A stretch of 64,000 nt of DNA from Microlunatus parietis (GTDB lineage: Bacteria > Actinomycetota > Actinomycetes > Propionibacteriales > Propionibacteriaceae): positions 5,022,001-5,086,000 of the forward strand of contig NZ_JACCBU010000001.1 in the NCBI RefSeq assembly GCF_013407955.1. The letters are read 5' to 3'. The notes below the pieces were generated by a model. The model was not told the DNA's origin. It ran no database searches and worked only from the letters and a program-made list of their open reading frames with translations. Position numbers and translations under genes: made by a program. This document shows positions 26,840-41,050 of the stretch, piece by piece. Every line of letters starts with the position of its first letter. Position 1 is the stretch's first letter.

Positions 26840-27826
26840 ATGAGCAAAGTCCTGATTCTCGGCGGTACGGCCTGGCTGGGCCGTGAACTGGCCCGGCAGG
26901 CGGCGGCCCGCGGCGACGAGGTGGTCTGCCTGGCCCGCGGCGCCGGCGGCGGTGTCCCCGCCGGCGCGCAGTTGATCAAGGCCGACCGGGAACGGCCGGA
27001 CGCCTACGATCAGGTCGCCGCGACGGACTGGGACCTGGTGATCGACGTCAGCCGGCAGCCCGGTCAGGTGCGCGGCGCCGTCCGGGCGATGGCGGAGCGG
27101 GCCGGGCACTGGGTGTTCGTCTCCACCTGCTCCGTGTACGCCGATCATTCCCGGCCCGGCGTCGACGAGTCCGACGGCCTGCTGCCCGCGCTGGAGGGCG
27201 ACGTGGCCAGGGTCGAGCAGTACGGCGAGGGCAAGGTCGCCTGCGAGCAGGCCTGCCTCGACGCGCTCGGCGACCGGGTCGTGCTGGCCCGGGTCGGCCT
27301 GATCGGCGGCGGCGGCGACGAGAGTGACCGGTTCGGCTACTGGCCCGGCCGGTTCGCCCGGGATGCCGGGCCGGTGCTGGTCCCCGACGCGGCGGACCAG
27401 ACCACCCAGACCATCGACGTCGGTGACCTGGCGGCCTGGCTGCTGCTGGCCGGCGACGAGCGGCTGTCCGGGCCGTACAACGTGCTGGGCGAGGAGGTCC
27501 CGTTCGGCGAGGTGCTCGAGCTGGCCCGCGCTGCCGCCGGGTTCGCCGGCGAGGTCGTGCCGGCGCCGGGGGAGTGGCTGCAGGAGCAGGGCGTCGAGCC
27601 GTGGATGGGGCCGCGCTCGCTGCCGCTGTGGCTGCCCGGCGCCGACTACGCCGGGTTCATGTCCCGCAGTGTCGAGCGGGCGGTCGCCGACGGCCTGACC
27701 CGGCGGCCGCCGGCCGAGACGGTCGAGCAGGCGCTCGCCGAGGAGCGTGAGCGCGGCCTGGACCGGGACCGGAAGGCCGGGCTCACCCCCGCCGAGGAGC
27801 AGGAGTTGCTGGCCGCGCTGGGCTGA
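26840..27826 (+). CDS. NAD-dependent epimerase/dehydratase family protein
   Basis: A protein of 328 residues. Extended short-chain dehydrogenase: nucleotide-binding VLILGGTAWLGRELARQA (G-G-T-x-x-x-G, about 4-21), VFVSTCSVYAD around the catalytic Ser, and YGEGKVACEQ giving the Y-x-x-x-K pair. Later, TQTIDVGDLAAWLL binds substrate. Closest in style to reductases annotated as sugar epimerases or isoflavone-reductase-like; substrate unknown. Divergent from the GH2 gene with 100 bp between. Confidence 0.85.
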   Translation: MSKVLILGGTAWLGRELARQAAARGDEVVCLARGAGGGVPAGAQLIKADRERPDAYDQVAATDWDLVIDVSRQPGQVRGAVRAMAERAGHWVFVSTCSVYADHSRPGVDESDGLLPALEGDVARVEQYGEGKVACEQACLDALGDRVVLARVGLIGGGGDESDRFGYWPGRFARDAGPVLVPDAADQTTQTIDVGDLAAWLLLAGDERLSGPYNVLGEEVPFGEVLELARAAAGFAGEVVPAPGEWLQEQGVEPWMGPRSLPLWLPGADYAGFMSRSVERAVADGLTRRPPAETVEQALAEERERGLDRDRKAGLTPAEEQELLAALG

Positions 27827-27871
27827 CCCGACCTCGCGGAGCGGCCCGACGAGACGTGCAGGTTCCACTGG

Positions 27872-28300
27872 TCAGGCGGCAGGGTCTCGGTCAGTGCCGT
27901 CGCTGCCGGTCCGGGTCGGGTAGAGCCTGATGCCGGGCCGCTCGACGTGCGGGAAGGACCGGTAGAACCCGAGCGAGTCCGGCTCGCTGAGCAGATCGAT
28001 CCGCGCTCCGCCCGCCAGCCGCAGGGCCTCGGTCACCAGCGACCGCCCGATCCCGGCGCCGCGGCGGTCCCGGTCGACCGCGAGCAGGGCCAGGAAGGCC
28101 TGCAGTTCGCCGTCGCTGAACAACTGGGCGAAGCCGAGCACCGTACCCTCCTCGACGGCGACCACCGTGGTCACGCCGGGGGCGGTCAGCACTCGTACCG
28201 CGCGCTCGGGGTCGGCCGGGAACGACGGCCAGCCCTCCGCCTCGCAGAGCCGGATCACGCCGTCGAGGTGGGAGCGGTCGAACCGCGGCAGGGTGATCAC
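27872..28300 (-). CDS. GNAT family N-acetyltransferase
   Basis: A protein of 142 residues from GTG 28298-28300, with AGGA about 7 bp upstream. The frame is open further upstream but without family sequence. Starts ITLPRFDRSHLDGVIRLCEA, and motif A is LLAVDRDRRGAGIGRSLV (about 71-88), then LLSEPDSLGFYRSF. Substrate unknown. Divergent from the DUF4396 gene. Confidence 0.8.
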   Translation of the reverse strand: MITLPRFDRSHLDGVIRLCEAEGWPSFPADPERAVRVLTAPGVTTVVAVEEGTVLGFAQLFSDGELQAFLALLAVDRDRRGAGIGRSLVTEALRLAGGARIDLLSEPDSLGFYRSFPHVERPGIRLYPTRTGSDGTDRDPAA

Positions 28301-28382
28301 CCGTCGATCCTGTGCGGCGTGAGGTCGGCGCACAATGGGTACGCCTTCTCGGGGACCGACATTCCAGTGCCCGGGAGGACCT

Positions 28383-28994
28383 GTGGCCGACAGCGTGAAC
28401 GTCATGGCCGTCAGCGCGACGCTGCACTGTCTGACCGGCTGTGCCATCGGTGAGATCACCGGCCTCCTGATCGGTACGGCCGCCGGCTGGCCGAACGTGC
28501 CGACGATCGCGATCTCGGTCGCGCTGGCGTTCTGCTTCGGCTATCTGCTGTCCACGCTGCCGCTGCTCAAGGCCGGCCTCGCCGTCGGGGCCGCCCTGCG
28601 GCTCGTGCTGGCGGCCGACACCGCCTCGATCGCCACGATGGAACTCGTCGACAACCTGGTGATGGTGATCATCCCCGGCGCGATGGAAGCCGGGCTGGTG
28701 AACATCGTCTTCTGGGTCGGGATGATGATCGCGTTCGCCGCGGCCTTCGTTGCCGCGTTCCCGGTCAATCGATTCCTGCTCCGGCGCGGCAAGGGGCACG
28801 CGCTGATCCACGGGCATCACGAGGCCTCCGCCGGCGAGGGTGCTCGCCGGTTCATCCCGTCCTTCCGTACCGGTGCGCTCGTCGCGGTGCTGGTCGCCTT
28901 CATGCTGGGCGGCCTGATCGTCTCGATCGCCGACGAGTTCGGCGGCAGCGGTGATCATGCGGCACAGCCCACGAACGCAGGAGTTCACTCATGA
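28383..28994 (+). CDS. DUF4396-type membrane protein
   Basis: A protein of 203 residues from GTG 28383; GTG 28395 or ATG 28404 are alternatives, as GGGAGG is only 4 bp from the first. TLHCLTGCAIGEITGLLIGT at the N-terminus followed by AISVALAFCFGYLLS is the DUF4396 pattern. There are about five transmembrane helices; a His-rich loop GHALIHGHHEASAGEG separates the last one. Possible metal-related membrane role, unproven. Overlaps the next acetyltransferase gene by 4 bp. Confidence 0.75.
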   Translation: MADSVNVMAVSATLHCLTGCAIGEITGLLIGTAAGWPNVPTIAISVALAFCFGYLLSTLPLLKAGLAVGAALRLVLAADTASIATMELVDNLVMVIIPGAMEAGLVNIVFWVGMMIAFAAAFVAAFPVNRFLLRRGKGHALIHGHHEASAGEGARRFIPSFRTGALVAVLVAFMLGGLIVSIADEFGGSGDHAAQPTNAGVHS

Positions 28995-29464
28995 CGACCC
29001 GCTTCCGCCCTGCCGAGCCTGGCGAGGCTCCGGAGCTGGAGGATCTCCAGTCCCGGTCCGCGTCGCACTGGGGCTACCCGGCGGGTTACTTCGACTGGGC
29101 CGGCGATGCGCGGAAGATCTCGGAGTCGTACGTCTGCGACAACCGGGTCCAGGTGCTCGTCGACGACGGCGGCCGGAGGCTCGGGTTCTACAGCTTCACC
29201 GAGAACGAGGACGGCCTGCTGCTGGACCGGATGTTTCTCGACGCCGACCAGATCGGCCGCGGCCTGGGGCGGCAGTTGTGGCAGCACGCCGTGCAGACGG
29301 CGCGCGAACTCGGGGTGTCGGAGTTCCGGATCGCCGCCGACCCCAACGCCGGGCCCTTCTACGAGGCGATGGGCGCGCGCTGGTACGGCTCGCGGCCGAC
29401 CCAGGAACCGACCTGGACGATACAGCTGTATCGCTTCAGTGTGCCGGGACGCCCAGGCGGGTGA
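28991..29464 (+). CDS. GNAT family N-acetyltransferase
   Basis: A protein of 157 residues; ATG overlaps the DUF4396 stop (ATGA). FRPAEPGEAPELEDLQSRS opens the domain, motif A is MFLDADQIGRGLGRQLWQ (about 77-94), and FYEAMGARWYGSRP is the typical end. Translation is coupled to the membrane protein. Its last 29 bp overlap the convergent TetR gene. Confidence 0.85.
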   Translation: MTTRFRPAEPGEAPELEDLQSRSASHWGYPAGYFDWAGDARKISESYVCDNRVQVLVDDGGRRLGFYSFTENEDGLLLDRMFLDADQIGRGLGRQLWQHAVQTARELGVSEFRIAADPNAGPFYEAMGARWYGSRPTQEPTWTIQLYRFSVPGRPGG

Positions 29465-29969
29465 AGACGCGCTCGACGGCCTGGGGCTCGAGCGGATCGA
29501 GGCCGAGCACGGCGCCGAGATAGAGCCCGTCGCCGACCAGCCGGATGATGTCGGCCTGCACCGGATCGTCGACCTCGGCGCGGAGCGCGTCGCTCCAGAC
29601 GCTGAAGACCTCCTGCACCAGGTCGCGGGTCTGTCGGCTCACCTCGATCCCGCTGCGCAGGGCGCTGAACACGGCCCAGTAGTGCTCGGCCTCGACACTG
29701 CCGGGCAGCGAGGTCTCGAGAAACGTCCGCACCACCCCGTCCTGCGCGGCCCGCTCGACGTTCGCCGCCGTGAACTCGCGCAGCCGCTCGGCGAGCCCTT
29801 CGATCAGCGCGGACTTGGACGGGAAGTGGTAGAGCAGCCCGCCCTTGGAGACCTCGGCCAGCTCGGCCACCGCGTCCAGGGTCAGCTGACCCGCGCCGCG
29901 CTCGACCAGGATCTGCTTCGCCGCGTCGAGCAACCGGGCTCGAGTCGCCTCCGATCGCCTTGTTGCCAT
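29436..29969 (-). CDS. TetR family regulator (neighbour of the hydrolase-SET gene)
   Basis: A protein of 177 residues from ATG 29967-29969 with GGAGG just upstream. N-terminal helix-turn-helix: RARLLDAAKQILVERGAGQL, then LDAVAELAEVSKGGLLYHFPSKSALI (about 30-55). The C-terminal ligand domain is of the TetR_C type found after this kind of L-L-Y-H-F motif. A 28-bp palindrome fills the divergent space to the hydrolase-SET gene, so auto-repression and repression of that gene are likely. Confidence 0.9.
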   Translation of the reverse strand: MATRRSEATRARLLDAAKQILVERGAGQLTLDAVAELAEVSKGGLLYHFPSKSALIEGLAERLREFTAANVERAAQDGVVRTFLETSLPGSVEAEHYWAVFSALRSGIEVSRQTRDLVQEVFSVWSDALRAEVDDPVQADIIRLVGDGLYLGAVLGLDPLEPQAVERVFTRLGVPAH

Positions 29970-29985
29970 CGCCCCTCCTCCTGAT

Positions 29986-30013
29986 TTACTGTACCGTCCA
30001 GACGGTATAGTAA
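29986..30013. promoter_or_regulatory. TetR operator, 28 bp
   Basis: Arms TTACTGTACCGTC (29986-29998) and GACGGTATAGTAA (30001-30013) around CA match at 12 of 13 pairs. The site sits between the divergent TetR and hydrolase-SET genes, 13-16 bp from each start, and overlaps the likely promoter. Confidence 0.75.
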
Positions 30014-30026
30014 CAGAGGGGAAGTG

Positions 30027-31448
30027 ATGGTGATGAGGAACGTCTCCGTTCGAGGCGGCCACGTGGTGGTCGACGAGTTGGTGCCGGCCGAGTCCGGTCC
30101 GGCCGTGTTGTTGGTGGCCGGCACCGGCTGTTCGCTGGATTTCTGGCGGCGGGATCTGTGTGAGGCGCTCGTCGCGGCCGGGCTGCGGGTGATCCGGTTC
30201 GACCAGCGCGACACCGGCGGCGCGTCGTCCGATCCGGCCGGCGCGCCGACGTACGGCCTTCCCGATCTGGTCGAGGACGCCGTCGCGGTGCTCGATGCGC
30301 TGGACGTACGGCAGGCGCACTGGGTCGGTTTCTCCCAGGGCGGCTGGGTGGCCCAGCTCGCCGCTCTGGATCACCCGCAACGGGTCGCGTCCCTGACGCT
30401 GGTCGCCTCCCGGCCGGTCGCCCACGGCCCGAACGACCCCGATCTGCCCGAGGTATCCGATGTCCTGCTGGCCGCCTTCGCCGAGGCGCTACCCGCGCCG
30501 GACTCGGCCGACCGGGACGGCTGGGTCCGGTATTTGGTGGATGGTGAACGGCCGTTCGCGAGTACGACAGCGCGGTTCGACGTCGAGGACGCCCGGGCCC
30601 TGGCGGCGACGGTCTTCGAGCGGACCGCAGATCTCGAGGCGATGCTGACGAACCATCCCGTGGCGCCGCAGGGCGATCGCTGGCGGGAGCGGCTCGGTGA
30701 GATCGACGTACCCGTCGCCGTCGTCCACGGCAAGGACGATCCGCTGTTCCCGCCGGGCAACGGCGAGGCGCTGGCCCGGGAACTCCCGGCCGCCCGGCTG
30801 CACCTCGTCGCCGGGATGGGCCACGAACTGCCCCGGCGGGTCCGCCCCGGTGTCGCCGCGGTGATCATCGACACCGTCGATCGCGGTGAGGCCCGGCGGG
30901 ACCCGGCACCGATCGACGCGGTCGCCGAGCGCCATCTCGGTGGCGACCACCTCGACACGCTGCCGTTCACCGAGGTGCGGCGCAGCGCGATCCACGGTCG
31001 CGGCCTCTTCGCGACCGCCTCCCGGCCGGCCGGGACCCTGCTCGGCGAGCTCGATGGCCAAGTCGTCGACGCGGCGGCCCACCCGGACGTCGTCGACGCA
31101 CTGGAGTGGAACGCGTTGAACCCGACGACCCTGCTGGTGCGGCCGATCCGGACCAGCTACGGCTTCCTCAATCACAGCGATCAGCCGAACGTGATCATCG
31201 ACCCGGATGGCCGGCGGCTCCGGGCCGGGAAGCCGATCGCGCCGGGAGACGAGTTGACCATCGACTACCTGGCTCAGCCGGTGCCGGAGAGCTACCTGCG
31301 CTCCGACGAGGCGCGGCGGCTTCGTACGGCGGAGAAACAGAGCGTGCTCAGCGCTCGCCGCCACCACTGCGCAGGTAGTACCAACGGCCCTGGTACGGGT
31401 AGAAGATCAGAGTTCGGTACGGGGGATCCGGCTTCGACGCTGTCGTGA
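30027..31448 (+). CDS. Alpha/beta hydrolase fused to a SET domain
   Basis: A protein of 473 residues from ATG 30027 (GTG 30024 and ATG 30033 are alternatives). Residues about 1-285 are an alpha/beta hydrolase: oxyanion region VAGTGCSLDFWRRDL, nucleophile S103 in GFSQGG, acid region VVHGKDDPLFPPG and the His in AGMGHELPRR. Residues about 310-420 are a complete SET domain: SAIHGRGLFAT (320), YGFLNHSDQPNVI (380) and GDELTIDYL (408). SET domains bind SAM and methylate Lys; here the target is unknown. The two halves are in one uninterrupted frame. The last 34 residues are low-complexity and antisense to the next gene. Controlled by the adjacent TetR operator. Confidence 0.82.
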   Translation: MVMRNVSVRGGHVVVDELVPAESGPAVLLVAGTGCSLDFWRRDLCEALVAAGLRVIRFDQRDTGGASSDPAGAPTYGLPDLVEDAVAVLDALDVRQAHWVGFSQGGWVAQLAALDHPQRVASLTLVASRPVAHGPNDPDLPEVSDVLLAAFAEALPAPDSADRDGWVRYLVDGERPFASTTARFDVEDARALAATVFERTADLEAMLTNHPVAPQGDRWRERLGEIDVPVAVVHGKDDPLFPPGNGEALARELPAARLHLVAGMGHELPRRVRPGVAAVIIDTVDRGEARRDPAPIDAVAERHLGGDHLDTLPFTEVRRSAIHGRGLFATASRPAGTLLGELDGQVVDAAAHPDVVDALEWNALNPTTLLVRPIRTSYGFLNHSDQPNVIIDPDGRRLRAGKPIAPGDELTIDYLAQPVPESYLRSDEARRLRTAEKQSVLSARRHHCAGSTNGPGTGRRSEFGTGDPASTLS

Positions 31449-31899
31449 ACGGGACGTCGAACGATCCGACCACCATCCCGGGATAGGACGGCCGGAACCG
31501 TACGCCCGCGAGCTCAGCCTGCAGCCTCGGGACGCGGGCCCGAACCTCGGCACGAATCTCGGCGAGTCTCTCGGGCTTTGCCATCGCGCCGCCGTGCTGT
31601 CGGATGCAACCGTCGTTGCCGAAGCAGGTGAGGGCCCACACCTCGTCCGGGTCGCCGCCGCGGACCGCCTCGGCGAACGCGACTGCGGCCTTGTCCGGAG
31701 TACTGAGGTCCGCTCGCGGCGCGCCGCCGAACCGGGGCACCACGAAGATCACGACCAACACGATCACCGCGACCAGGACCACCGCAACGCCGCCGACCAG
31801 AAGCGCGATCGGAGCGCCGTTCGGCTTCTTCCGCGGTGCCGTAGCAGGCCGCGGCGGCTGCCGGCGCGGATCCGGCGGTCCGGGAGTAGGGCTGCTCAT
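31348..31899 (-). CDS. Single-pass membrane protein with extracytoplasmic domain
   Basis: A protein of 183 residues from ATG 31897-31899, GGAGGAG upstream. A Pro/Arg-rich cytoplasmic start (about 1-28), one transmembrane helix (IALLVGGVAVVLVAVIVLVVIFVV region, about 31-55), then an NTF2/DUF4878-like domain (TPDKAAVAFAEAVRGGDPDEVWALTCFG) and a beta-rich end closing with LIFYPYQGRWYYLR. Function unknown. The 3' end is antisense to 101 bp of the hydrolase-SET gene. Confidence 0.7.
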   Translation of the reverse strand: MSSPTPGPPDPRRQPPRPATAPRKKPNGAPIALLVGGVAVVLVAVIVLVVIFVVPRFGGAPRADLSTPDKAAVAFAEAVRGGDPDEVWALTCFGNDGCIRQHGGAMAKPERLAEIRAEVRARVPRLQAELAGVRFRPSYPGMVVGSFDVPFTTASKPDPPYRTLIFYPYQGRWYYLRSGGGER

Positions 31900-31950
31900 G
31901 GCTCCTCCTCGGTGGCGAGGCATGGCGAATCCGTACGGCGGAGAAAAATC

Positions 31951-31974
31951 GGCGCCCCCGCAGGATTCGAACCT
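31951..31974. repeat. attL: duplicated 3' end of tRNA-Arg
   Basis: GGCGCCCCCG followed by CAGGATTCGAACCT matches 40370-40394 except for one missing G. The T-loop TTCGAA core is included. No cloverleaf can be folded here, so it is an attachment-site remnant and not a tRNA gene. Confidence 0.75.
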
Positions 31975-32030
31975 TACCGCAAGGGGTAGCCGGGATCCCT
32001 TGCAGGTAACGGCATTCGCCTTACAGGTAA
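31974..32030. promoter_or_regulatory. Putative integrase arm-type sites beside attL
   Basis: Two 12-bp direct repeats, CCTTGCAGGTAA (31998-32009) and CCTTACAGGTAA (32019-32030), are spaced by 21 bp, two helical turns. An inverted partner TTACCGCAAGG lies at 31974-31984. This is the usual size and spacing of arm-binding or excisionase sites of tyrosine-integrase systems. Confidence 0.5.
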
Positions 32031-32136
32031 GGGATTCTAGCGATCCGGCCGCGTGTCTGACGTGGACAGAAATGGACGAAAAGGTAGTCTCGTATTGCAC
32101 GGTATCGACACGCGATGCCGAGAGGGAGGCCCCGGG

Positions 32137-33285
32137 ATGGCGACGAGCCGCAAGCGGAAGCAACGAAAGCAACGGGAGCCGTGGGGGCGAGTGCGGGAAC
32201 TCCCGTCTGGCCGGCACCAGGCGTCCTACGTGTACGAGGGCGCGACCCACAAGGCGACCTCGACCTTCGACACATTGCTGGACGCGCGAGCCTGGCTGAC
32301 GGCCGAACGGTCGTTGATCGACCGGGGGCTGTGGGTCCCCCTGGCCCGGCGGAACGCGACCGGGCTGCGGACGCTGGCCAGCTACGCGGAGGCCTGGTTC
32401 GCGGGTCGGGAGTTGAAGCCGCGCACCCGCAGGCACTACCGGGGCATCCTGGACCGGAGAATCATTCCGGACCTTGGTGATCATGAAATGGATAAGGTCA
32501 CCCCGGCGGATGTCCGGGCCTGGTACGCCACCCTGGACCCGACCGAGAAGACCGCGCGGGCCCATGCCTACAGCCTGCTGAAGACGATCTTCGCGACGGC
32601 GATTGATGAGGAAGTGATCACCATCGCCAACCCGTGCCGGATCAAGGCCGCCGGGCAGTCAAAGCGGCAGCGCAAGATCAAGCCTGCCTCCCTCGGTGAG
32701 CTTGAGGCCATCGTTACTGCGCTGCCGGACAAGTGGGGACTAATGATCATGTTCGCTTCATGGTGCGCGCTCCGGTTCGGCGAGCTGACCGAGCTGCGCC
32801 GTAGCGATCTTGATCTGAAGTCGGGGACCGGCGTGATCATGGTGACCAGGGGCGTGACCTGGGCTGGGAGCCCGGCCGAGCCGATCGTTGGCCCGCCGAA
32901 GTCTGATGCCGGGGTGCGGGACGTGGACATCCCGCCGCACCTGCTGCCGATGATCAAGGCGCACCTCAAGGACTGGGCGCAATGGGGCAAGGACGGGCTG
33001 CTGTTCCCGTCGCCGCGCCTGGGAAATCAGCTTCAGCACGGGTCGTTCTACAAGACCTGGGACGACGCCAGGAAGGCCGCAGGACGGCCTGATCTGCGGT
33101 TCCACGACCTGAGGCACACCGGGGCCGTACTCGCCGCTCAGAGTGGCGCTACCCTCGCCGAATTGATGGCGCGGTTGGGCCATTCCACCCCGGCGATGGC
33201 GATGCGGTATCAGCACGTGGCCGAGGGTCGGGGTGCTGAGATCGCCCGCCTGCTGTCGGCGAAGGTGACGGGGGCGACGGCATGA
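32137..33285 (+). CDS. int: Tyrosine integrase
   Basis: A protein of 382 residues from ATG 32137 with GAGGGAGG 7 bp upstream. N-terminal basic arm-binding part (RKRKQRKQREPWGR, YVYEGATHKATSTFDTLLDA), SAM-like core-binding domain (TLASYAEAWFAGRELKPRTR, about 85-105), then the catalytic domain with R213 (CALRFGE), H323-x-x-R326 (HDLRHTG), H349 (LGHST) and Y358 (MRYQH). All five catalytic residues are present, so the enzyme should be active. It mediates site-specific recombination at tRNA-Arg. Its stop overlaps the next gene by 4 bp. Confidence 0.95.
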   Translation: MATSRKRKQRKQREPWGRVRELPSGRHQASYVYEGATHKATSTFDTLLDARAWLTAERSLIDRGLWVPLARRNATGLRTLASYAEAWFAGRELKPRTRRHYRGILDRRIIPDLGDHEMDKVTPADVRAWYATLDPTEKTARAHAYSLLKTIFATAIDEEVITIANPCRIKAAGQSKRQRKIKPASLGELEAIVTALPDKWGLMIMFASWCALRFGELTELRRSDLDLKSGTGVIMVTRGVTWAGSPAEPIVGPPKSDAGVRDVDIPPHLLPMIKAHLKDWAQWGKDGLLFPSPRLGNQLQHGSFYKTWDDARKAAGRPDLRFHDLRHTGAVLAAQSGATLAELMARLGHSTPAMAMRYQHVAEGRGAEIARLLSAKVTGATA

Positions 33286-33578
33286 CCGACGATCATCAGG
33301 AAGTTGATCTTGGTCGCCCCACGAATCCTGAGGCCGTGTTGTTAGCTCGGTGCGGAGAGTGTTTCCGCCCTGTTGCGCACCTGGTCGTGCCGCCGGAAAC
33401 CGAGCGCACCCTCGCGGCTGTGGTTGAGGCCGGGGAGTGGGTGGCGGTACGGCGGCAAGGGTGCAAGTGTGCCGGTCCGCTGCCCATGATCGATGATCTT
33501 GAAACGGACATCAGACGCGCCCTTCGGCGAGGGCTGTATGGTCAGCCCACCAGTGCACCCGTGACCATCCGCGTCTAG
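33282..33578 (+). CDS. Small Cys-containing element protein
   Basis: A protein of 98 residues, ATG overlapping the integrase stop. Two Cys pairs, RCGECFRP (about 23-30) and GCKCAG (about 60-65), could form a zinc ribbon. The remainder is unremarkable, with an acidic-basic C-terminal helix (MIDDLETDIRRALRRGL). Function unknown; co-transcribed with int. Confidence 0.65.
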   Translation: MTDDHQEVDLGRPTNPEAVLLARCGECFRPVAHLVVPPETERTLAAVVEAGEWVAVRRQGCKCAGPLPMIDDLETDIRRALRRGLYGQPTSAPVTIRV

Positions 33579-33600
33579 ACAGAAGTGGACCAGCTGTGTA

Positions 33601-33695
33601 GCGTGGCCGTCAGAACTTGATCAACAAGCTCCCTCGGTCGGCCACGCGCGGTGGACAAGTGCGGTGCAGAGCGGCCGCCTCTTTCTGAGAGGCGG
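33601..33695 (+). promoter_or_regulatory. Two hairpins upstream of the excisionase-like gene
   Basis: GCGTGGCC (33601-33608) pairs with GGCCACGC (33640-33647), and CCGCCTC (33675-33681) pairs with GAGGCGG (33689-33695), the latter ending 7 bp before the ATG at 33703. The second would bury the ribosome site, suggesting translational control or a terminator before the excisionase-like gene. Confidence 0.4.
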
Positions 33696-33702
33696 TTTCG
33701 CT

Positions 33703-33894
33703 ATGCCCGCACGTCGGTATCTGAGCCTGTCCGAGGCTGCCGAGTATCTGGGAATCAACGTCCGCACCCTGCGGCGTGCCATCGCCGATGGGCGTATTGA
33801 CGGCTACCGAATCGGTGATCGAATCGTTCGTGTTGATCTTGATCAAATTGAGCAGTCGCTGTTGATCAAGATCCCGACGGCTGTGGGTCGGTGA
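33703..33894 (+). CDS. Excisionase-type helix-turn-helix protein
   Basis: A protein of 63 residues from ATG 33703. MerR/Xis-like winged helix: YLSLSEAAEYLGINVRTLRR (about 5-24), AIADGRIDGYRIGDRIVRV and a final DLDQIEQSLL. This is the HTH_17 layout used by excisionases and plasmid regulators. Proximity to int makes a recombination directionality factor likely (inference). Confidence 0.8.
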   Translation: MPARRYLSLSEAAEYLGINVRTLRRAIADGRIDGYRIGDRIVRVDLDQIEQSLLIKIPTAVGR

Positions 33895-33923
33895 TCATGA
33901 TTTCGCCACCTAGGAGAAGAGTC

Positions 33924-33950
33924 GGCCCCAGCGCATCGAGCACTGGGGCC
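33924..33950 (+). terminator. Strong hairpin after the excisionase-like gene
   Basis: GGCCCCAG (33924-33931) and CTGGGGCC (33943-33950), perfect 8-bp stem with an 11-base loop, 30 bp after the stop. Likely rho-independent-like terminator without a U-run. Confidence 0.55.
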
Positions 33951-34051
33951 GCCCCTCACCGAAAGAGTGATCAACATAGGAGTTCAGACTCCGCTGTCAC
34001 CCTAGCACCGGGGTACGGGTCCGGCGAGGGCTCGCGCGAAGCGGGGTCGGC

Positions 34052-34348
34052 GTGACCGGGTTCAAGATCAGATGGTCGGCCACGGTGGCCGAGATGCTCG
34101 GCGCGAAGGCGATCACGGCCGATGCCGACATTCCCGACGATGCCCCGGAGGTGCTGAAGCAGGGGCTCGCGTATCGGAAGATCGTCAACACGGGCGATCC
34201 CTGCCCCGGTTGCGGGGTCCGGGTGGCTCCGCCGACCCGCGCCGAGTTGCGGCAGGCCCAGCGGAGCCGCGTGTTGATCATGTCTGACGTGCATCATGCG
34301 CGTGATTGTCCGGGATCGCTGCGGGGATTCGGGGGTCGCGGTGAGTGA
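34052..34348 (+). CDS. Small zinc-finger-like element protein
   Basis: A protein of 98 residues from GTG 34052. PCPGCGVRVAPP (about 50-61) and HHARDCPGSL (about 81-90) give a C-x-x-C plus H-H-x-x-x-C set that could bind zinc. It overlaps the PrimPol-helicase start by 8 bp and is likely translated with it. Function unknown. Confidence 0.6.
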   Translation: MTGFKIRWSATVAEMLGAKAITADADIPDDAPEVLKQGLAYRKIVNTGDPCPGCGVRVAPPTRAELRQAQRSRVLIMSDVHHARDCPGSLRGFGGRGE

Positions 34349-36560
34349 GGCGGCGACCGTCCCGATCGGTGATGATCATGAGTCCGATGCGGCCCTTGAG
34401 GCGGTCCGCGAGTTGATCAAGGCCGGGGCCCCGGTGTTCTTGGCTCGCCCGGCGATGCGGTACCGCAGCTGGGACCCCGGCGGGGGCGATGGCGGGACCG
34501 GCTACCGGCTCCCGCCCGGCTGGCAGGCGACCGAGCCGGACCTCTCGGTCCTCGATCGATGGCAACCGGGGGACGCGCTGGCCATGGTCGGCGGGGTGCT
34601 GTTCGACGTGATCGACACCGACCGGCAGCACGACGGCGAGGCGGCCCGTGATCAACTTCGGGCGGCCGGACTGTGGCCGACCACATACGGCACCGTTGCC
34701 ACGCCCTCGGGTGGCCTGCATGAGTACGTCACGCCGCTCGGGATCGGGAAGGACAACGGCGGTGCGGTCGGCCCGGGGATTGACCTGGTCGGCGGCCTGC
34801 CGGATGGGTCCGGCCGGGGGTTTGTATTCCTGCCGCCGACCAGTCGACTGTCCAAGATCACCGGGGAGGTCCGGCGGTATCGGTGGACCGAGCCCCTGGT
34901 GCTGGGCGAGGGTGCCGGGGACGATAGCGGGGCCGCGCTGGCGGAGCGGGTCCGGGCCGCCCGTGGGCGGCCCGTAACGCCCGATCAGGGGCACTCGGGG
35001 GTGTCGGCGGTGCTGTCGCTGCCGGTGAGCCCGGCCGTGTCGCTGTCGGCCGACCAGCGGACCCGGGCACGCCTGTACGTCGAGGCGGCGATCAAGGGGA
35101 TCAAGGCCGAGCTCGCGGCGTCGGCGGGGTGGCCCGAGGGGCACCGGGATGATCATGGGCGCGGGTGGGAGAGGATGCAGGCCGACGCGGCGCTGCGGCT
35201 GGCATCGCTGGCGCGGGCGGACTGGAACGATCTGGACCTCGGCGCGGCGAAGGCGGCGTTCATGTCCGCCGCGCCGACCAGCGGCCGGTGGACCGTCCGT
35301 GATGTTGATCAGAAGTGGACCTCGCAGGCCCGGCGGGCGACCGAGGCGCGGATGCCAGACCTCGCCGAGTTGGTGATCGGCGACGGGGTCCCGGTTGTGA
35401 CCGGTGATCAGGTTCCGATCGCGACGTTGGCGACGGCCGACGTTCAGGGCGAGGCAGGGGAGGACACGGCTCAGGACTACGAGACGAGGGTCGCGAGAGA
35501 GGCGGCCCGTATCCGGATTCGCCGCGATGCCCGCCGGATCGTTGATGCCGAGGATCAGCCTCCTGCGCCGCCGTTCGACATCGGTACCCTCGCCGAGATC
35601 CTGGCCCGCCCCGAGGAGCCACCGGCCCGGATTGATCAACTAATGCCGTGGGAAGGGTCCCTGCTGATCGCGGCGCAGCGCAAGACCGGGAAGTCAACTC
35701 TGGTGCTGAACATCGCTCGGAGTTTGATCACCGGCGAGCCGCTGCTAGGTAGGTTCCAGGTCCGACCGGTGTCGGGAACCGTCGCCCTTCTGAACTTCGA
35801 GGTATCGGGCACGCAGGTTGCACGGTGGGCGGACGAAGTCGGGGTGCCGCGTGATCAGCTTCATCTGGTCAACCTGCGCGGTCGGCGGAATCCGTTCATC
35901 GAGCCCGAAGACCTGGAACGTCTTGCCCGCGAGCTACGCGGCCGTGAGGTCGAAACCCTGATCGTTGATCCGTTCGGTCGCGCCTATCCGGATACCGACC
36001 AGGAGCACCCTGGCCCGGTCCAACGCTGGCTGGTGCAGCTTGATCAATTCGCCCGTGCCGATGTCGGCGCGCGGGATGTGATCTTGACGACCCACACCGG
36101 ATGGAATGGCGAACGAACCCGTGGCAGTTCGGCCCAGGAGGACTGGGCGGATTCCATCCTGACCATGGTCAAGGACGATCCACCGGATGGCGACGGAGCC
36201 CGGTACCTGCGCGCGATCGGCCGCGATGTTGATCTTGACGAGGAGCGGCTCGACTACGACTCGGACTCCCGGCAGCTAACCATGAGCGGGGCCGGTGGTC
36301 GGCGCAAGGCTCGCGCGTCCGAGAAGGTCGCCGCGATGATCCCGGTGATCGAGAGGGTGGTCGCCGACAGCCCGGGAATCACGACTCGCTACCTCCGCGA
36401 CGCGGCTCGCCGGGTGGCGGGCGAGGGGTGTCGCAACGGCGACATCGACAGTGCGATCAAGCGCGCCGAAGAGCTAGGAAACATCCGGGTCGAATCCGGC
36501 GGACCAGGCCGTCCAACGCATCACTACCCGGTCCAGGAGGCGAGTCCCGATGTCGTTTAA
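34341..36560 (+). CDS. PrimPol-helicase replication protein
   Basis: A protein of 739 residues from GTG 34341. Residues about 30-220 form a bifunctional primase-polymerase domain: DVIDTDRQHDG (catalytic acidic pair, about 87-97), ATPSGGLHEYV (H127) and GIDLVGGLPDGSGRG. Residues about 430-660 are a RecA/RepA-like helicase: Walker A AAQRKTGKSTLVLNIARSL (about 444-462), Walker B LIVDPFGRAYPD and ILTTHTGWNG. A winged-helix-like region closes the protein. It would initiate replication of the excised element. The iteron-like cluster begins 6 bp downstream. Confidence 0.85.
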   Translation: MSEAATVPIGDDHESDAALEAVRELIKAGAPVFLARPAMRYRSWDPGGGDGGTGYRLPPGWQATEPDLSVLDRWQPGDALAMVGGVLFDVIDTDRQHDGEAARDQLRAAGLWPTTYGTVATPSGGLHEYVTPLGIGKDNGGAVGPGIDLVGGLPDGSGRGFVFLPPTSRLSKITGEVRRYRWTEPLVLGEGAGDDSGAALAERVRAARGRPVTPDQGHSGVSAVLSLPVSPAVSLSADQRTRARLYVEAAIKGIKAELAASAGWPEGHRDDHGRGWERMQADAALRLASLARADWNDLDLGAAKAAFMSAAPTSGRWTVRDVDQKWTSQARRATEARMPDLAELVIGDGVPVVTGDQVPIATLATADVQGEAGEDTAQDYETRVAREAARIRIRRDARRIVDAEDQPPAPPFDIGTLAEILARPEEPPARIDQLMPWEGSLLIAAQRKTGKSTLVLNIARSLITGEPLLGRFQVRPVSGTVALLNFEVSGTQVARWADEVGVPRDQLHLVNLRGRRNPFIEPEDLERLARELRGREVETLIVDPFGRAYPDTDQEHPGPVQRWLVQLDQFARADVGARDVILTTHTGWNGERTRGSSAQEDWADSILTMVKDDPPDGDGARYLRAIGRDVDLDEERLDYDSDSRQLTMSGAGGRRKARASEKVAAMIPVIERVVADSPGITTRYLRDAARRVAGEGCRNGDIDSAIKRAEELGNIRVESGGPGRPTHHYPVQEASPDVV

Positions 36561-36565
36561 CCAGC

Positions 36566-36689
36566 GTGTGCCCGGGTGTGCCCGAGTGTGCCCGGGGCAC
36601 GGTGGTGGTGGTGTGCCCCGTGCCTGTATAGGGGCACACCACCCACGGCACACCCGGGCCGGGGTGCGATCAGTGAAATCGGGGCACAC
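36566..36689. repeat. Iteron-like cluster, candidate replication origin
   Basis: GTGTGCCCG occurs three times at exact 10-bp spacing (36566, 36576, 36586), again as GTGTGCCCC at 36611, and inverted as GGGGCACAC at 36631 and 36681 and GGCACACCC at 36647. The 36610-36619 and 36631-36640 copies form a perfect 10-bp hairpin with an 11-base loop. Placement right after the PrimPol-helicase gene is where element origins usually lie. A packaging site or terminator are alternatives. Confidence 0.55.
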
Positions 36690-36830
36690 CACACCCCAGC
36701 CCGGGAAGGCCCACGGTGGATCTGCACTTGCCAACAGCCGCACGGACCCCTCCTGGCGAGCCGGGTCCGGTTCATGATCACCTATGTAAATTCCCCATCC
36801 GGAACCTTCGGTCTGGGCAGAAAATTCGCT

Positions 36831-37046
36831 ATGCCCAAGGGGGCGACGACGGGCCCGGGGGAGGGGATGGGGCCCCACATGATCACCCGCAGCCTGGGGC
36901 CGGGCACGTGGCGAGCGCGGCTGTTAGCGACCCGAACCCCGCGCGGGTCGGGATCGCCGGGAACCCCGACACCGATCGACCTGATCGCGGGAGCCGTTGC
37001 CCGTGATCATGAAGCCCAATCGAACACAAGACACAACCGGAAGTAG
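36831..37046 (+). CDS. Possible small element protein
   Basis: A 71-codon frame beginning MPKGATTGPGEGMGPHMITR, rich in Gly, Pro, Arg and Thr, ending 9 bp before the next gene. The context before its ATG (TTCGCTATGCCC) repeats that of the excisionase-like gene. Codon pattern is plausible, but no family is recognised. Confidence 0.35.
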   Translation: MPKGATTGPGEGMGPHMITRSLGPGTWRARLLATRTPRGSGSPGTPTPIDLIAGAVARDHEAQSNTRHNRK

Positions 37047-37055
37047 GAGCATCGA

Positions 37056-37328
37056 ATGAAGATCAAGATCGGATTGACTGTCGCCGACCAACGCCGCGCG
37101 TTGAATGTGATCAGCGCGTACCTACGCGAGGACGGACCGGCGATGCAGGCCGCGCTTCAGGACGCGTTGACTGCCGATCGCGCGGGCGAGTTGCTGCTGT
37201 CGGTGCCGCACGTCCTCAAGCAGGCGTTCCCGGAGATGGGAGGCCGGGAGTTCGCGGTCTGGCTGAAGCAGTCCACGCTGGCCGCCGTCCGCGCCGAGCA
37301 TGATCACGAACCGGGGGACGCAGCATGA
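37056..37328 (+). CDS. Hypothetical element protein
   Basis: A protein of 90 residues from ATG 37056 with AGGAG 8 bp upstream. Predicted helical: VADQRRALNVISAYLREDGP, ALTADRAGELLLSV and EFAVWLKQSTLAAV. The next gene starts in its stop (ATGA), so it belongs to the scaffold-capsid transcription unit. Could be a small head or packaging accessory protein; unproven. Confidence 0.65.
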   Translation: MKIKIGLTVADQRRALNVISAYLREDGPAMQAALQDALTADRAGELLLSVPHVLKQAFPEMGGREFAVWLKQSTLAAVRAEHDHEPGDAA

Positions 37329-38023
37329 CCGACACCGATACCGACGCCGCCGACACCGCTGCGGCCCCTGGCCGCCGTGCCGGGCCCGGGGTTGCCCAGG
37401 ACACCGGGGAGCGGGCGACAGGCCCGCAGCGGGGCGCTGACGGCCGCGCAGCGGCACCCCCGGCCAACCAAGGGGGGCCGGGTGGCGAGCAGCCCCCGGC
37501 CCTGCGCGACGCCGGGCGGCCGCACGACCCCCCGGGGTCATCGGATGAGGAGGGGGATCGTGACGACCGGCAGGGGGATGGTGATCGTGACGCCCGGCAG
37601 GGGGATGGTGATCATGACCCCCGGCCGGATCGCGAGGCGGCCCGGTACCGGCGACAACTCCGGGAGGTGGAGAGCGAGCGCGACGGGCTCCGGGCGCAAC
37701 TCGACCAGACCCGCCGGGACATGATCACGAACCAGCCGTTGACCCATCGGCCCGAGACTGGTGGGGTGCAGCGGCTGTCCAACCCGGCCGACCTGTTTGA
37801 GTACGGCGATGTTGATCTTGGCGCGCTGTTCCCGGAGGGGCGGTTCGACGCCGAGGCCCTCGCGGCGAGGCTGGCCGACTTGTACCGGGAGCGGCCGCGC
37901 CTGTTCGAACGGGACCGGATCGCCCCGGTGATCAAGGCCGAGGGCAAGACTCCCGGCCCGGGCAGGGCGTCGGCTACGACTTGGAAGGACGCCCTGGATC
38001 GGGCCATGCAGGCCGCCGACTAG
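37325..38023 (+). CDS. Scaffold-like protein preceding the capsid gene
   Basis: A protein of 232 residues. The N-terminal 100 residues are disordered and rich in Asp, Gly and Arg, with a 9-residue internal repeat. A coiled coil follows (YRRQLREVESERDGLRAQLD, about 99-118), then a folded C-terminal part (LFEYGDVDLGALFPEG, AARLADLYRERPRLFE). Position immediately upstream of an HK97-type capsid gene, coiled coil and acidic disorder match phage scaffolding proteins (inference). Confidence 0.65.
   Translation: MTDTDTDAADTAAAPGRRAGPGVAQDTGERATGPQRGADGRAAAPPANQGGPGGEQPPALRDAGRPHDPPGSSDEEGDRDDRQGDGDRDARQGDGDHDPRPDREAARYRRQLREVESERDGLRAQLDQTRRDMITNQPLTHRPETGGVQRLSNPADLFEYGDVDLGALFPEGRFDAEALAARLADLYRERPRLFERDRIAPVIKAEGKTPGPGRASATTWKDALDRAMQAAD
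37567..37620 (+). repeat. 27-bp tandem repeat inside the scaffold-like gene
   Basis: The unit CCGGCAGGGGGATGGTGATC continues to 27 bp and is repeated once with single changes, encoding two copies of RQGDGD(R/H)D(A/P). The period is nine codons, so copy-number change would keep the frame. Confidence 0.6.
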
Positions 38024-38199
38024 CGGCATTGCAATGTAGGGTGCTGGTTGATCATTCGGGTACCGGCCGTGCCGGACCGATCATGATCACGAAGGCCCCA
38101 GGTTGGGCAGCACGGTAAGGCCAGCGGCCGCCGCGCGGAGATTCATTCCGTGTAGGCGGCCGTTCGCGTTCTCGCGGGCCGCCGGAGAGCAAGCCCAAC

Positions 38200-39051
38200 A
38201 TGCCTATGTACACCGCCGACGCCGCCCAGGCGTGGCTCCCGCAAGACATCGGTGATCTTGTCACTCGCCCGGTCACCCAGGAATCCGTCGCGATCACGGC
38301 CGCCGGATCGATCCGCGCGTCCGAGGACGCCAACTCCTACCGGGTGCCCCTGGTCGCCGCCGACCCGACCGCCGCCTGGACGGCCGAGGGTGCCGAGATC
38401 ACCGCGACCGATGCCCAATTTGACGAGGTCGCCGACACCTTTCACAAGCTCGCCGGGCTGACGATCATCAGCCGGGAGTTGGCCGAGGACACTTCCCCCG
38501 ACGCCGCCCAACAGGTCGGGTTCGGTCTGGCCCGCGACATCGCCCGCAAGCTCGATGCCGCCTTCTTCGGCAGCCGTGGCGCGTCCACGTTGCAGCCCCT
38601 CGGGCTGGCCGACCTGACCGGGACCAACACGATCGACGCCGGAGCCGCCTGGGGTAACGCCGATCCGTTCACCGAGGCTGTCTATGCCGCCGAGGGCGAG
38701 GGGGCCGCGCTGTCCGCGTTCGTGGCCAACCCGGTTGACGCGCTGGCCCTGTCCTCGATCAAGGAGCAGACCGGTTCCAACAAGGCCCTGTTGCAGCCCG
38801 ACGCCACCCAGGCCAACCGGCGGCTGGTGGCCGGTGTCCCGTTGCTGACCAGCCCGGCGGTCGCACCCGGCACCGTGTGGGGCATCCCGGGCGCCGGACG
38901 GGTGGTGATCGTGATCCGCGACGATGTCCGGCTCGAGATCAGCCGCGAGGCCTACTTTTCCTCCGACCGGGTCGGGGTCAAGGCGACCTTGCGCGCAACG
39001 TTCCTATACCCGCACGAGCTCGCGATCCAGGAGATCAGCCTTACCCCCTGA
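38200..39051 (+). CDS. HK97-type phage major capsid protein
   Basis: A protein of 283 residues. HK97-fold signatures: N-arm start AAQAWLPQDIGDLVTRPV, then YRVPLVAADPTAAWTAEG (typical V-P...A-x-W-x-x-E-G), FHKLAGLTIISRELAEDTS (spine helix entry), ARDIARKLDAAFFGSRG, a P-loop-like LALSSIKEQTGSNKALLQPD, VAGVPLLTSPAVAPGTVWG and a closing RATFLYPHELAIQEI. The length equals the mature core, without a protease-cleaved delta domain, in line with a separate scaffold gene. No prohead protease is seen. It would form the element's own capsid shell. Confidence 0.9.
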   Translation: MPMYTADAAQAWLPQDIGDLVTRPVTQESVAITAAGSIRASEDANSYRVPLVAADPTAAWTAEGAEITATDAQFDEVADTFHKLAGLTIISRELAEDTSPDAAQQVGFGLARDIARKLDAAFFGSRGASTLQPLGLADLTGTNTIDAGAAWGNADPFTEAVYAAEGEGAALSAFVANPVDALALSSIKEQTGSNKALLQPDATQANRRLVAGVPLLTSPAVAPGTVWGIPGAGRVVIVIRDDVRLEISREAYFSSDRVGVKATLRATFLYPHELAIQEISLTP

Positions 39052-39060
39052 ATCGTGATC

Positions 39061-39402
39061 ATGGACCCGGTCGGCACAGTTGGTGATCTTGCGTCTCGGC
39101 GGCGGCGCGTTCCACCGCCGCCGGGACCGACCGCGCCGGGTGTCCTACTCGCCGACGCGTCAGCCGTGGACCCGGGCGGCGTGTCCAGCGCCGCCGTGGC
39201 CAGCACTGACCCCGGGCCCGCCCATGATCACCGCCTGCGCCATGGTCACCGGACCATGGTCAAGGCCGCACCGGGGGCGAGGCGTGGGATCGATCCGGCC
39301 GACCGCCGGGGCCCCCGATCACCCTTCTCGACTGCGGCTCCGGCAGGCGTTCATGATCAACACGATCCCGCGCCCCCGATCTGCCGGTTCGGCGTCGGCT
39401 GA
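39061..39402 (+). pseudogene. Probable decayed head-tail connector gene
   Basis: Directly after the capsid gene an ATG frame starts MDPVGTVGDLASR and later gives GVLLADASAVDPGG, resembling gp6-like connectors (start x-x-D-L-A-x-R, then LLADAS). Between and after these, sensible continuation alternates with another frame (RLGGGAF; PPMITACAMVTG), suggesting frameshifts. The position fits a connector. Similarity was judged by eye and is weak. Confidence 0.35.
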
Positions 39403-39476
39403 CCACAAGCAAAGGCCCGCAGGCCGCGACCACCCGGCCGCGAGCCTGCGGGCCCGTGTTGACCAGACCTAGTTGA

Positions 39477-39863
39477 TCATGCCCCCGCCGCAATCCGCCC
39501 CAACCGCAGCGACGCCCGATAGGCGACAGTGGCCAATGCCTCGGCCTCCCCGGCCGTGAGTCGGACCGCGTCGGCGCTGACCTCGATCACGGGCGGCAGC
39601 AGTTCCACCCGTCCGACCTCGCCGAACTCATCGGCGATGATCACCACCCGGACCGCCAGGCCATCGGCACCGGACACGGTCCCGACCTCCAACTCGTGGC
39701 GTCGGTTTACCGCATCATGATTCCCGACCGTGTACGGGTGGCCCGGCTCGCCTAGACACCACCACGGACACGGCACCGTGGCGGCCCGCTGTCGGCCGTC
39801 AGTGTCTCGGTAGGTGTCCAGGGCGTGATTGCGCGCGGGTTTGTCAATAGGCTCGTTGGCCAT
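39477..39863 (-). CDS. DUF6907-type protein
   Basis: A protein of 128 residues, opposite in strand to the rest of the element. The core VPCPWWCLGEPGHPYTVGNH (P-x-W-C ... H, about 30-49) and later EVSADAVRLTAGEAEALATV match, from memory, DUF6907, a family frequent in actinobacterial mobile elements and Streptomyces. Cys/His residues may bind metal. Possible regulatory or accessory role. Confidence 0.7.
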   Translation of the reverse strand: MANEPIDKPARNHALDTYRDTDGRQRAATVPCPWWCLGEPGHPYTVGNHDAVNRRHELEVGTVSGADGLAVRVVIIADEFGEVGRVELLPPVIEVSADAVRLTAGEAEALATVAYRASLRLGRIAAGA

Positions 39864-40368
39864 GATCGACTCCTAGTTGTGTAGGTGTTCGGTCTAGGCC
39901 CGGGCCGGTGTTGACGCACCGGCTCGGGCCGCTTGGCTGTGACCCTAGATCGGCAGCGCGGCGGCGGCTAGCGACGGTTCAGAACGTGGGCTGCGGGCCG
40001 CAGGGCGGGCCCGTGGCGAACCGGCGAGTCGGGGCCGGGACCCGGGCCAACCTCGCCGACCACGGAGCCCGCTACGCCGGGCGCTCGTTCGCCCGCCCGC
40101 AGCCGTGGCCGATTGGCCGCTTGAGGGGATCGTCCCGGGTCGGCGGCGCTGCCCGCGAGCACCCGCCCACAACCCACGGCGGCCCCGTGGTGAACCCAAG
40201 CCCGGGACACCGCCCTGGTCAGCGTCCGGGCGTGTCTCGCGGCCGCGCTTGTCGGCGGCCCCGGCCATTGACCGGCCGACCCGGGCCGCTGAAGGCGTCG
40301 CGTATTGCACATATGTTGCACGCGACCGTGAGATTTGCGCCGATTCGGCCTCTGACTAGGCCGAACAG
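39864..40368. other. Right-end non-coding stretch of the element
   Basis: No convincing gene. It holds a 19-bp direct repeat (GGCGG[G/C]CCCGTGG[C/T]GAACC) at 40004-40022 and 40178-40196, 17/19 identical, 174 bp apart. It may represent recombination or packaging signals near attR, or remnants of lost genes. Confidence 0.4.
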
Positions 40369-40443
40369 TGGCGCCCCCGGCAGGATTCGAACCTGCGCAC
40401 AAGGTTTAGGAAACCTCTGCTCTATCCCCTGAGCTACGGGGGC
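40369..40443 (-). tRNA. tRNA-Arg (anticodon CCT)
   Basis: Minus strand, 75 nt including an encoded CCA. Acceptor GCCCCCG (40443-40437) pairs with CGGGGGC; the D arm is GCTC-AGGGGATA-GAGC; anticodon stem GAGGT/ACCTT frames loop TTCCTAA with anticodon CCT; the T arm GCAGG-TTCGAAT-CCTGC is perfect; discriminator base G. Serves as the integration site of the element on its 3' side and remains intact. Confidence 0.95.
40370..40394. repeat. attR within the tRNA-Arg 3' end
   Basis: GGCGCCCCCGG plus CAGGATTCGAACCT; partner of 31951-31974, differing by one G. It covers the acceptor, T-stem and T-loop of the tRNA, so insertion preserved the gene. Confidence 0.75.
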
Positions 40444-40557
40444 GTGACGCGGCAACGCTACCCCGGTCCGGCGCGGTCGGGCCAGTTGAAACCTCCGGCT
40501 CACCCAGCGTGCCGAGTCGCTAGGAATATCGAAGGGGCTAGGCCGGTTGTCGCAGAT

Positions 40558-40998
40558 ATGCCTTTGAATGGACACTACGAACCCAGCCCGTCGGACTTCG
40601 CCCGGAAGCAGGTCGACCTCTACGAGTCGTCCGGAGGCCGGGCGGGCACCACGAACCGGGGCCGCCCGGTGGTCGTGCTGACCACGCTGGGGGCGAAGAG
40701 CGGGAAGGTTCGCAAGACGCCGCTGCAGCGGGTCGAGCACGACGGCGAGTACGCGGTGGTGGCCTCCCTGGGCGGGGCGCCGAAGCCGCCGAAGTGGTAC
40801 TACAACGTGCTGGCCCACCCCGAGGTCGAACTGCAGGACGGCCCGGTCAAGAAGGACTACCGGGCTCGTGAGGTGACGGGCGAGGAGCGGGCCGTGTGGT
40901 GGGACCGTGCGGTCGAGTCGTGGCCCGACTACGCGAACTACCAGACCAAGACCGACCGCGAGATCCAGGTCTTCGTCCTGACGCCGGTCGCGGCCTGA
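40558..40998 (+). CDS. F420-type nitroreductase family protein (DUF385)
   Basis: A protein of 146 residues from ATG 40558. Deazaflavin-dependent nitroreductase pattern: [21 protein letters not shown] (about 37-57), [20 protein letters not shown] (about 69-88) and [15 protein letters not shown]. These split-barrel proteins reduce quinones or nitro compounds with F420H2 or bind flavin. First chromosomal gene right of the element. Confidence 0.88.
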
Positions 40999-41050
40999 CC
41001 AGGGGCCATGTGGCGCGCGGAGGGTCCGATCCTCCGTAGACTTTGCGCAC

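Follow-up and report, generated by a model that had tools for sequence, protein, structure and literature searches.

The window analysed here, a stretch of 64 kb (G000:C1:5022001-5086000), comes from the genome of Microlunatus parietis, a member of the Propionibacteriaceae whose genome of 7.24 Mb is available as one contig. It contains a discrete element of 8.4 kb (31951-40394) inserted in a gene for tRNA-Arg(CCT), with nine genes between its repeats, eight on the plus strand and one on the minus strand (Table 1). The plus-strand genes encode, in this order, an integrase, orfA, an excisionase, orfB, a replication protein of the PrimPol-AAA_25 type, orf90, a likely capsid scaffold and a major capsid protein (MCP).

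Table 1. Features of the element and of its integration site, in window coordinates (aa, amino acids).
Feature	Position	Strand	Matches and remarks
attL, displaced copy of the tRNA-Arg 3' end	31951-31974	plus	1 base shorter than attR
Tyrosine integrase	32053-33285	plus	PF00589 6.3e-18; phrog_1 2.7e-67
orfA, 98 aa	33282-33578	plus	no family match in Pfam, PHROGs or NCBIfam
Excisionase (HTH_17 / TIGR01764)	33703-33894	plus	TIGR01764 1.3e-11
orfB, 98 aa	34052-34348	plus	sole Pfam hit at E 0.15
PrimPol-AAA_25 (RecA/DnaB-like) replication protein, 754 aa	34296-36560	plus	PF09250 6.5e-8; PF13481 6.8e-27
Candidate replication origin, 124 bases, 6 copies of GTGTGCCC/GGGCACAC	36566-36689		directly 3' of the replication gene
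orf90, 90 aa	37056-37328	plus	directly upstream of the scaffold gene; placed by position only
Likely capsid scaffold, 232 aa	37325-38023	plus	named by position and by homology to other positional scaffolds
HK97-family MCP, 283 aa	38200-39051	plus	without N-terminal delta domain
CPxWC / DUF6907-like gene	39477-39863	minus (convergent)	PF21848 24.3 bits, below the cut-off of 26
tRNA-Arg(CCT), integration site	40369-40443	minus	attR repeat 40370-40394

A preliminary description of the locus had proposed a tRNA-Arg(CCT) site with a 24-25 bp duplication of the tRNA 3' end, and both were recovered: the tRNA was called, is intact and is the only structured RNA found in 31300-41000, and the two copies of the repeat are identical in 24 of 25 columns with a single 1-base gap. 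The local score of attL against the tRNA region is 43, compared with a maximum of 28 for 1,590 other plus-strand pieces of 80 bases and of 23 for the minus-strand pieces, and the 15-bp core of the repeat occurs at just two sites in the 64 kb when up to 2 mismatches are allowed. In the nearest congener, G019, tRNA-Arg(CCT) is present with a right flank 81% identical to that of the window, and the site is free of the element. The order there is a homologue of window position 27.8 kb, about 2 kb of unmatched sequence, the tRNA and then the window from 40.36 kb onward; therefore both the element and about 4 kb of left flank are missing, the latter (27823-31950) being replaced by the unmatched sequence. 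Elsewhere in the M. parietis genome, the tRNA-Arg 3' end is found twice more as a 28-base near-copy (96%; G000:C1:3309320-3309347 and 3273032-3273059), and these two sites are possibly the ends of other integrated elements.

The HK97-type capsid protein announced earlier is borne out by sequence, with 102.1 bits against PF05065 (E 4.7e-29, cut-off 24.2) and 90.1 bits against the HK97 MCP model of NCBIfam (cut-off 27.5). A profile made from 14 sequences of the family is colinear with the solved mature HK97 gp5 (282 aa, E 6.7e-14), its columns 55-276 corresponding to residues 55-277 of the mature chain and its columns 56-276 to residues 159-380 of full-length gp5; the window MCP is thus the counterpart of mature gp5, and lacks the delta scaffolding domain. 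It can be aligned over its entire length with its relatives, those of loci L128 and L129 being 58% and 55% identical to it, and the closest phage records are twelve Mycolicibacterium aichiense genomes of 10.9-11.1 kb (36-39% identity). Plasmid records gave just 2 distant matches, and a single-protein scan of viral contigs gave none. The open reading frame (ORF) described as scaffold-like has no informative match in Pfam, PHROGs or NCBIfam, but a profile built from the MCP-adjacent ORFs of 12 other loci, with the window ORF excluded, recognises it at 9.8e-13. By phmmer it matches ORFs of L038 (1.5e-7), L132 (2.9e-7) and L126 (4.1e-5), and the scaffold ORFs of the window and of L048 have no match in phage records.

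The intact tyrosine integrase, the excisionase-like helix-turn-helix (HTH) protein and the PrimPol-helicase that had been listed beside the capsid gene were all identified by family models (Table 1). The integrase is closely matched by that of the congener element L126 (phmmer 4.7e-147), and homologues of the excisionase are present in other elements. Judged by eye, ATG 32137 is a likelier start of the integrase than the upstream GTG, as is ATG 33703 for the excisionase. Searched with Pfam, PHROGs and NCBIfam at E<=1, the nine ORFs gave no family of terminase, portal, connector, protease, tail or lysis proteins, with the sole exception of the excisionase, whose HTH matches families of small terminase subunits at E 0.0014 and 0.3. 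Local profiles for TerL, portal, TerS, connector and protease, the portal profile including the L062 portal identified by eye, were run on the element with filters off and gave a best E of 0.12; those for TerS and serine integrase remained at chance level. With scores at chance level only, hidden genes for TerL, TerS, portal, connector or protease were rejected, and both kinds of scan agree with the earlier statement that no other virion or lysis gene is recognisable.

Related loci were collected by a class-level search, which gave matches in 32 of 394 genomes and from which 20 stretches were read, by an order-level search, with matches in 65 of 391 genomes and again 20 stretches read (picked by score plus the congeners G009 and G005), from viral contigs (30 loci, 7 examined, 3 of them profile-searched and placed in trees) and from named genomes (29 loci, all profile-searched). 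The window MCP, searched against 20 genomes of the genus, returned only its own copy; the family profile, applied to the order sample, added the two congeners. G009 has a relative of 8.03 kb in tRNA-Arg(CCG), with an integrase closely similar to that of the window, and G005 has an element of 11.66 kb (L127:362-12099) that carries terminase and portal and lies in the same tRNA type as the window element, tRNA-Arg(CCT).

These relatives fall into two kinds, either with full-length terminase and portal or without both, and TerL scores are clear-cut (<=3e-30, or none below 1e-2) except for ATPase pieces in L151 and L152. The pieces, at L151:7720-8559 (Arthrobacter castelli) and L152:7944-8759 (Demequina iriomotensis), match the short phrog_7579 terminase family, with no portal found beside them, and possibly represent a half-terminase. 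Most loci that lack full-length TerL and portal encode an integrase of the tyrosine or serine type and a replication protein that varies in type (PrimPol-AAA_25, DUF3631, D5-like or RecA/DnaB-like), and often also an excisionase. An ORF matching the scaffold profile is present in all 22 TerL+portal rows and in 35 of the 40 terminase/portal-less loci (6 of these had fed the profile), and was not found in L051, L134, L140, L162 and L174. Some mycobacterial, Rhodococcus and Nocardia loci have a TerS-profile ORF, confirmed by PHROGs in L153, L001 and L047 have a tape measure gene, and in L128 a transposase-like ORF is inserted (by eye) and the integrase is unlike that of the window. Tested at called tRNAs only, and with the duplicate L147 left out of the count, a tRNA repeat of at least 18 bp was found in 20 of 24 terminase/portal-less loci (spans of 7.4-10.3 kb; not found in L034, L128, L134 and L152) and in 7 of 7 TerL+portal loci (10.0-11.7 kb), the two size ranges touching. 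The tRNA scan left out L040-L043, L048, L055, L056 and L058, and the repeat counts exclude a tRNA called within the L136 MCP. Among the viral contigs, L062 (10.6 kb) is likely a complete satellite genome, with a 127-base terminal repeat, an integrase, a D5-type primase, TerL, a long MCP, and portal and HNH ORFs recognised by eye.

The two kinds of locus are also clustered by their capsid proteins. In an unrooted tree of 41 MCPs, in which near-copies inflate the clustering and some contigs extend less than 10 kb beside the MCP, the TerL+portal label takes 2 changes (shuffled mean 14.0), and with 21 more rows from named genomes the 62-row tree, to be read in the same way, takes 3 (shuffled mean 18.4); in both cases 0 of 500 shuffles were as low. 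The window clusters with L128, L129, L146 (Actinomyces culturomici) and L149 (Ruicaihuangia caeni) with support 98/94, and its 20-row branch (92/80), which includes Arthrobacter, Demequina, Rhodococcus, Nocardia, Mycobacterium and Acidimicrobiia loci, has no row with full-length TerL and portal. The 41-row tree omits L035, L039, L044 and L049 (broken, partial or longer MCP); the 62-row tree further omits L147 (L129 contig), L148, L150, L155 and L161 (short contigs or contig edges), L171 (identical to L035), L172 (by eye a near-copy of L169) and L173 (partial); and both omit L057, L059 and L062 (with portal, or with TerL and portal).

Behind the replication gene lies the array given as candidate origin in Table 1, of which 200 shuffles of the element reproduced at most 4 copies. 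Of 18 other elements compared, two (L129 and L047) carry an array of 9 copies where the replication gene ends on its 3' side, and none was counted there in the remaining 16. In phage-inducible chromosomal islands (PICIs), the origin immediately follows the gene for replication initiation (PMC6092414), the place that the array takes in the window element. The PrimPol-AAA_25 protein matches that of the terminase/portal-carrying L131 (8.5e-89), and among phage records it matches 5 prophage records, in the helicase half only, at 26-29%.

From this gene content we consider the element to be, quite probably, an integrated phage satellite that makes only its shell, with portal, terminase and tail supplied by a helper: it has shell genes and no recognised packaging or tail genes, so it probably borrows those from a helper phage. 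The element-free site in G019, the 8.03-kb relative in G009 and the M. aichiense record L001, deposited as complete without TerL or portal, speak for such a satellite. So do the attL and attR copies at the tRNA, the tRNA-bounded relatives, the grouping on the MCP tree, the colinearity of the MCP with mature gp5, the scaffold-profile ORFs of the related loci and the place of the repeat array. Upon infection by the helper, or its induction, Int and Xis would excise the element, the PrimPol-helicase would replicate it from the repeat array, scaffold and MCP would build a procapsid on the portal of the helper, the helper terminase would fill this shell via an element-borne cos or pac site, and connector and tail would come from the helper. 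The shell is probably smaller than that of the helper because the element is only 8.4 kb long. The HK97 capsid has a triangulation number of T=7 and corresponds to about 40 kb; by simple scaling, a T=3 shell would have a capacity of about 11 kb.

In a search for prophages in the M. parietis genome itself, which used PF03354 (TerL) and PF04860 (portal) only, one match to each was obtained, both in a prophage at about 179-202 kb. This resident prophage (L053, L054; G000:C1:175001-215000) has genes for TerL, portal, MCP, connector, tape measure, a RecT-like protein and a glycosyltransferase. Its MCP is unrelated to that of the element (best E 0.17) and the longest exact stretch shared by the two is at most 17 bp, and on these grounds it was rejected as the source of the element or as a shown helper; by its presence only, it is possibly the helper.

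Several observations weigh against a shell-only satellite. The attL copy lacks one base of attR, and the attachment site may therefore be decayed; no TerS was recognised and no cos or pac site identified in the element; no helper was matched, the sole prophage found with the two models being unrelated to the element; and the scaffold owes its name purely to position and to homology with other positional scaffolds. A PrimPol-type replication protein is found in the terminase-carrying L131 too, and among seven comparison stretches of the window, of the same size and partly overlapping, one has a 7-copy and one a 5-copy cluster of the repeat, so that the position of the array, not its count, carries the argument. 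On the MCP tree, the M. aichiense-type group contains both architectures intermingled, with 5 rows for each, the terminase/portal-less L166 sits among terminase-carrying rows, and within the branch of the window L151 and L152 carry their TerL-like ATPase piece of 270-280 aa; the terminase/portal state is not permanently fixed.

Some of these points would suit a remnant left by deletion from an ordinary prophage or from a terminase/portal-carrying satellite, namely the shortened attL, the place of L166 in the tree and the existence of terminase/portal-carrying relatives, one of which (L127) occupies tRNA-Arg(CCT) in another congener. Such an origin is nevertheless very unlikely: the family genes are open, the element has no sequence relationship to the resident prophage, the organisation is alike in distant genera at separate tRNA sites, and loci lacking terminase and portal group together on the MCP tree and make up all 20 rows of the branch that holds the window. 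The tree and the recurring organisation thus disfavour and largely contradict a remnant, and the preference of the preliminary description for a satellite over the deletion remnant of one prophage is upheld, since terminase/portal-less loci are found repeatedly, at many tRNA sites, and group together on the tree. A satellite by descent might also have lost its mobility in the present strain, its attachment site having decayed and no matching helper being at hand. The 1-base deletion in attL, the unmatched helper and the density of the palindrome TGATCA (see below), which suggests a long stay in the present or a similar host lineage, point that way; against this, the recognised genes have open frames, the alignment of the MCP with its relatives covers its full length and the tRNA is intact, and we regard a loss of mobility as unlikely.

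Two further readings give the capsid gene another role. It is highly improbable that capsid and scaffold serve to poison or titrate the head assembly of the helper instead of packaging the element, as the failure to recognise a packaging gene or site in it might suggest, when 35 of the 40 such loci have a scaffold-profile ORF beside the MCP, an M. aichiense record with this type of MCP is deposited as a complete phage genome and the narrow range of element sizes fits packaging. An encapsulin-like compartment carried by an integrative element would account for an HK97-family shell protein without portal or terminase, but is hardly credible beside a scaffold-family gene and a context of integrase, excisionase and replication genes in which no cargo gene was recognised, and Pfam and NCBIfam list phage MCP models for the protein and no encapsulin family.

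Among the remaining genes of the element, neither orfA (at E<=10) nor orfB has a phmmer match among the ORFs called in 11 minimal loci; phmmer among minimal-locus ORFs likewise found no sequence homology for orf90, whose position is occupied in L126 by ORFs of 80 and 83 aa. The minus-strand gene, which like the repeat array is absent from the preliminary description, encodes a CPxWC protein that matches its counterpart in L140 (phmmer 3.6e-5). Of the 10 loci in the order sample that lack terminase and portal, 6 (the window, L126, L128, L132, L137 and L140) have an oppositely oriented CPxWC gene past the MCP. The Pfam cut-off for DUF6907 is passed by L140 alone, the window and L132 lying below it and L126 and L128 being unlisted. 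Some frames that look like chance ones contain the motif as well: L138 has one, of 58 aa, L142 has two and L045 has one, the last three lying outside the element. The motif was otherwise not found in TerL+portal loci, nor among ORFs of at least 90 aa in the 29 named genome loci. No repressor was recognised among the ORFs of the element in the Pfam, PHROGs and NCBIfam scans, prototypical PICIs having a regulator of the stl/rpr type, and PADLOC gave no match to defence cargo in the six of nine ORFs scanned. Scans for promoters (2 found, 0.6 expected) and terminators (2 found, 3.0 expected) were not informative. The sequence TGATCA occurs 4.30 times per kb in 31990-40369 and 1.75 times in the rest of the window, with about 0.06-0.07 expected from base composition; the region of the resident prophage has 1.55 per kb, G019 has 1.54 and the G009 and G005 stretches have 0.13-0.42. 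This palindrome is highly iterated in a lineage-specific manner and reaches its greatest density in the satellite.

Islands combining an integrase and an MCP have been published from Mycobacterium as candidate PICIs; those with a tyrosine integrase lie in tRNA genes, helicase and scaffold genes are present in some of the islands and terminase in some, and their induction by phages is stated as yet to be demonstrated (PMC10654092). The window element is like them in its integrase and MCP, in the tyrosine type of its integrase and in its tRNA site with attL and attR; their hosts are Mycobacterium, and the section devoted to them presents neither a separate terminase/portal-less lineage nor a convergent DUF6907-like gene. 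The claim of a little-described type therefore has to be narrowed: integrase and capsid islands in tRNA genes were already published, and it is the terminase/portal-less lineage that is not separated in that section. The elements phiRv1 and phiRv2 correspond to PICI-like elements of slow-growing mycobacteria according to the same section; phiRv1 has a serine integrase by the title of a reference, that of the window is a tyrosine integrase, and both elements are compared here by description only. The M. aichiense records (OR387110-OR387121) have a homologous MCP, and L001, the one record read, also has a scaffold-profile ORF; in this record, deposited as a complete genome, TerL and portal are neither annotated nor found by profile. 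Its annotation gives a terminase (134 aa, small-subunit size), adaptor, stopper, MCP, tape measure and serine integrase, and apart from the MCP none of these was recognised in the window element. In the literature searched, no paper on these records was found, M. aichiense and phages occurring together only in a taxonomy paper, and no paper joined Propionibacteriaceae and phage satellites.

Other satellites also differ from the window element, as far as the relevant passages of the cited papers describe them. Capsid-forming PICIs encode MCP, protease, portal, connectors, both terminase subunits and HNH, a set of which the window element shows only its own MCP (PMC10690885). PICIs of Gram-positive bacteria have no structural genes, a divergent control of int versus xis-rep and a size of about 15 kb; the window element is like these and the Staphylococcus aureus pathogenicity islands in having int, xis and a primase-type replication module with a repeat array, here a candidate origin, behind it, and in its assumed dependence on a helper, and differs in having int, xis and rep all on the plus strand, an MCP with a scaffold-family ORF and a size of 8.4 kb (PMC6092414). 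The Streptomyces satellites MulchRoom and MiniFlayer, which parasitise virulent phages, are likewise actinobacterial with their own capsid gene, and encode small and large terminase subunits, portal, MCP, scaffold and adaptor (PMC10690885).

Judged from these sequence comparisons, what appears to be new is the terminase/portal-less, scaffold-bearing form as a conserved lineage, here in a Propionibacteriaceae genome, since islands of integrase and capsid were already known. To our knowledge, known satellites either remodel the capsid of the helper or carry a whole head and packaging set. We put forward, as a tentative proposal that is somewhat short of probable, that the Actinomycetota may harbour an old and separate lineage of shell-only satellites, in which the MCP would be a mature HK97 core with its scaffold in trans, the helper portal would start the shell and the helper terminase would fill it, giving hybrid capsids of fixed small size with a satellite shell and a helper vertex, and in which the replication gene would be freely swapped and a convergent DUF6907-like accessory gene would be present in part of the Propionibacteriales branch. 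If so, the question is how a foreign shell is started on the helper portal and recognised by the helper terminase, and a lineage with shell and scaffold and without portal or full terminase would provide a direct test of the specificity of the interface between capsid, portal and terminase. Many capsid and integrase islands of actinobacteria might then be complete elements rather than remnants.

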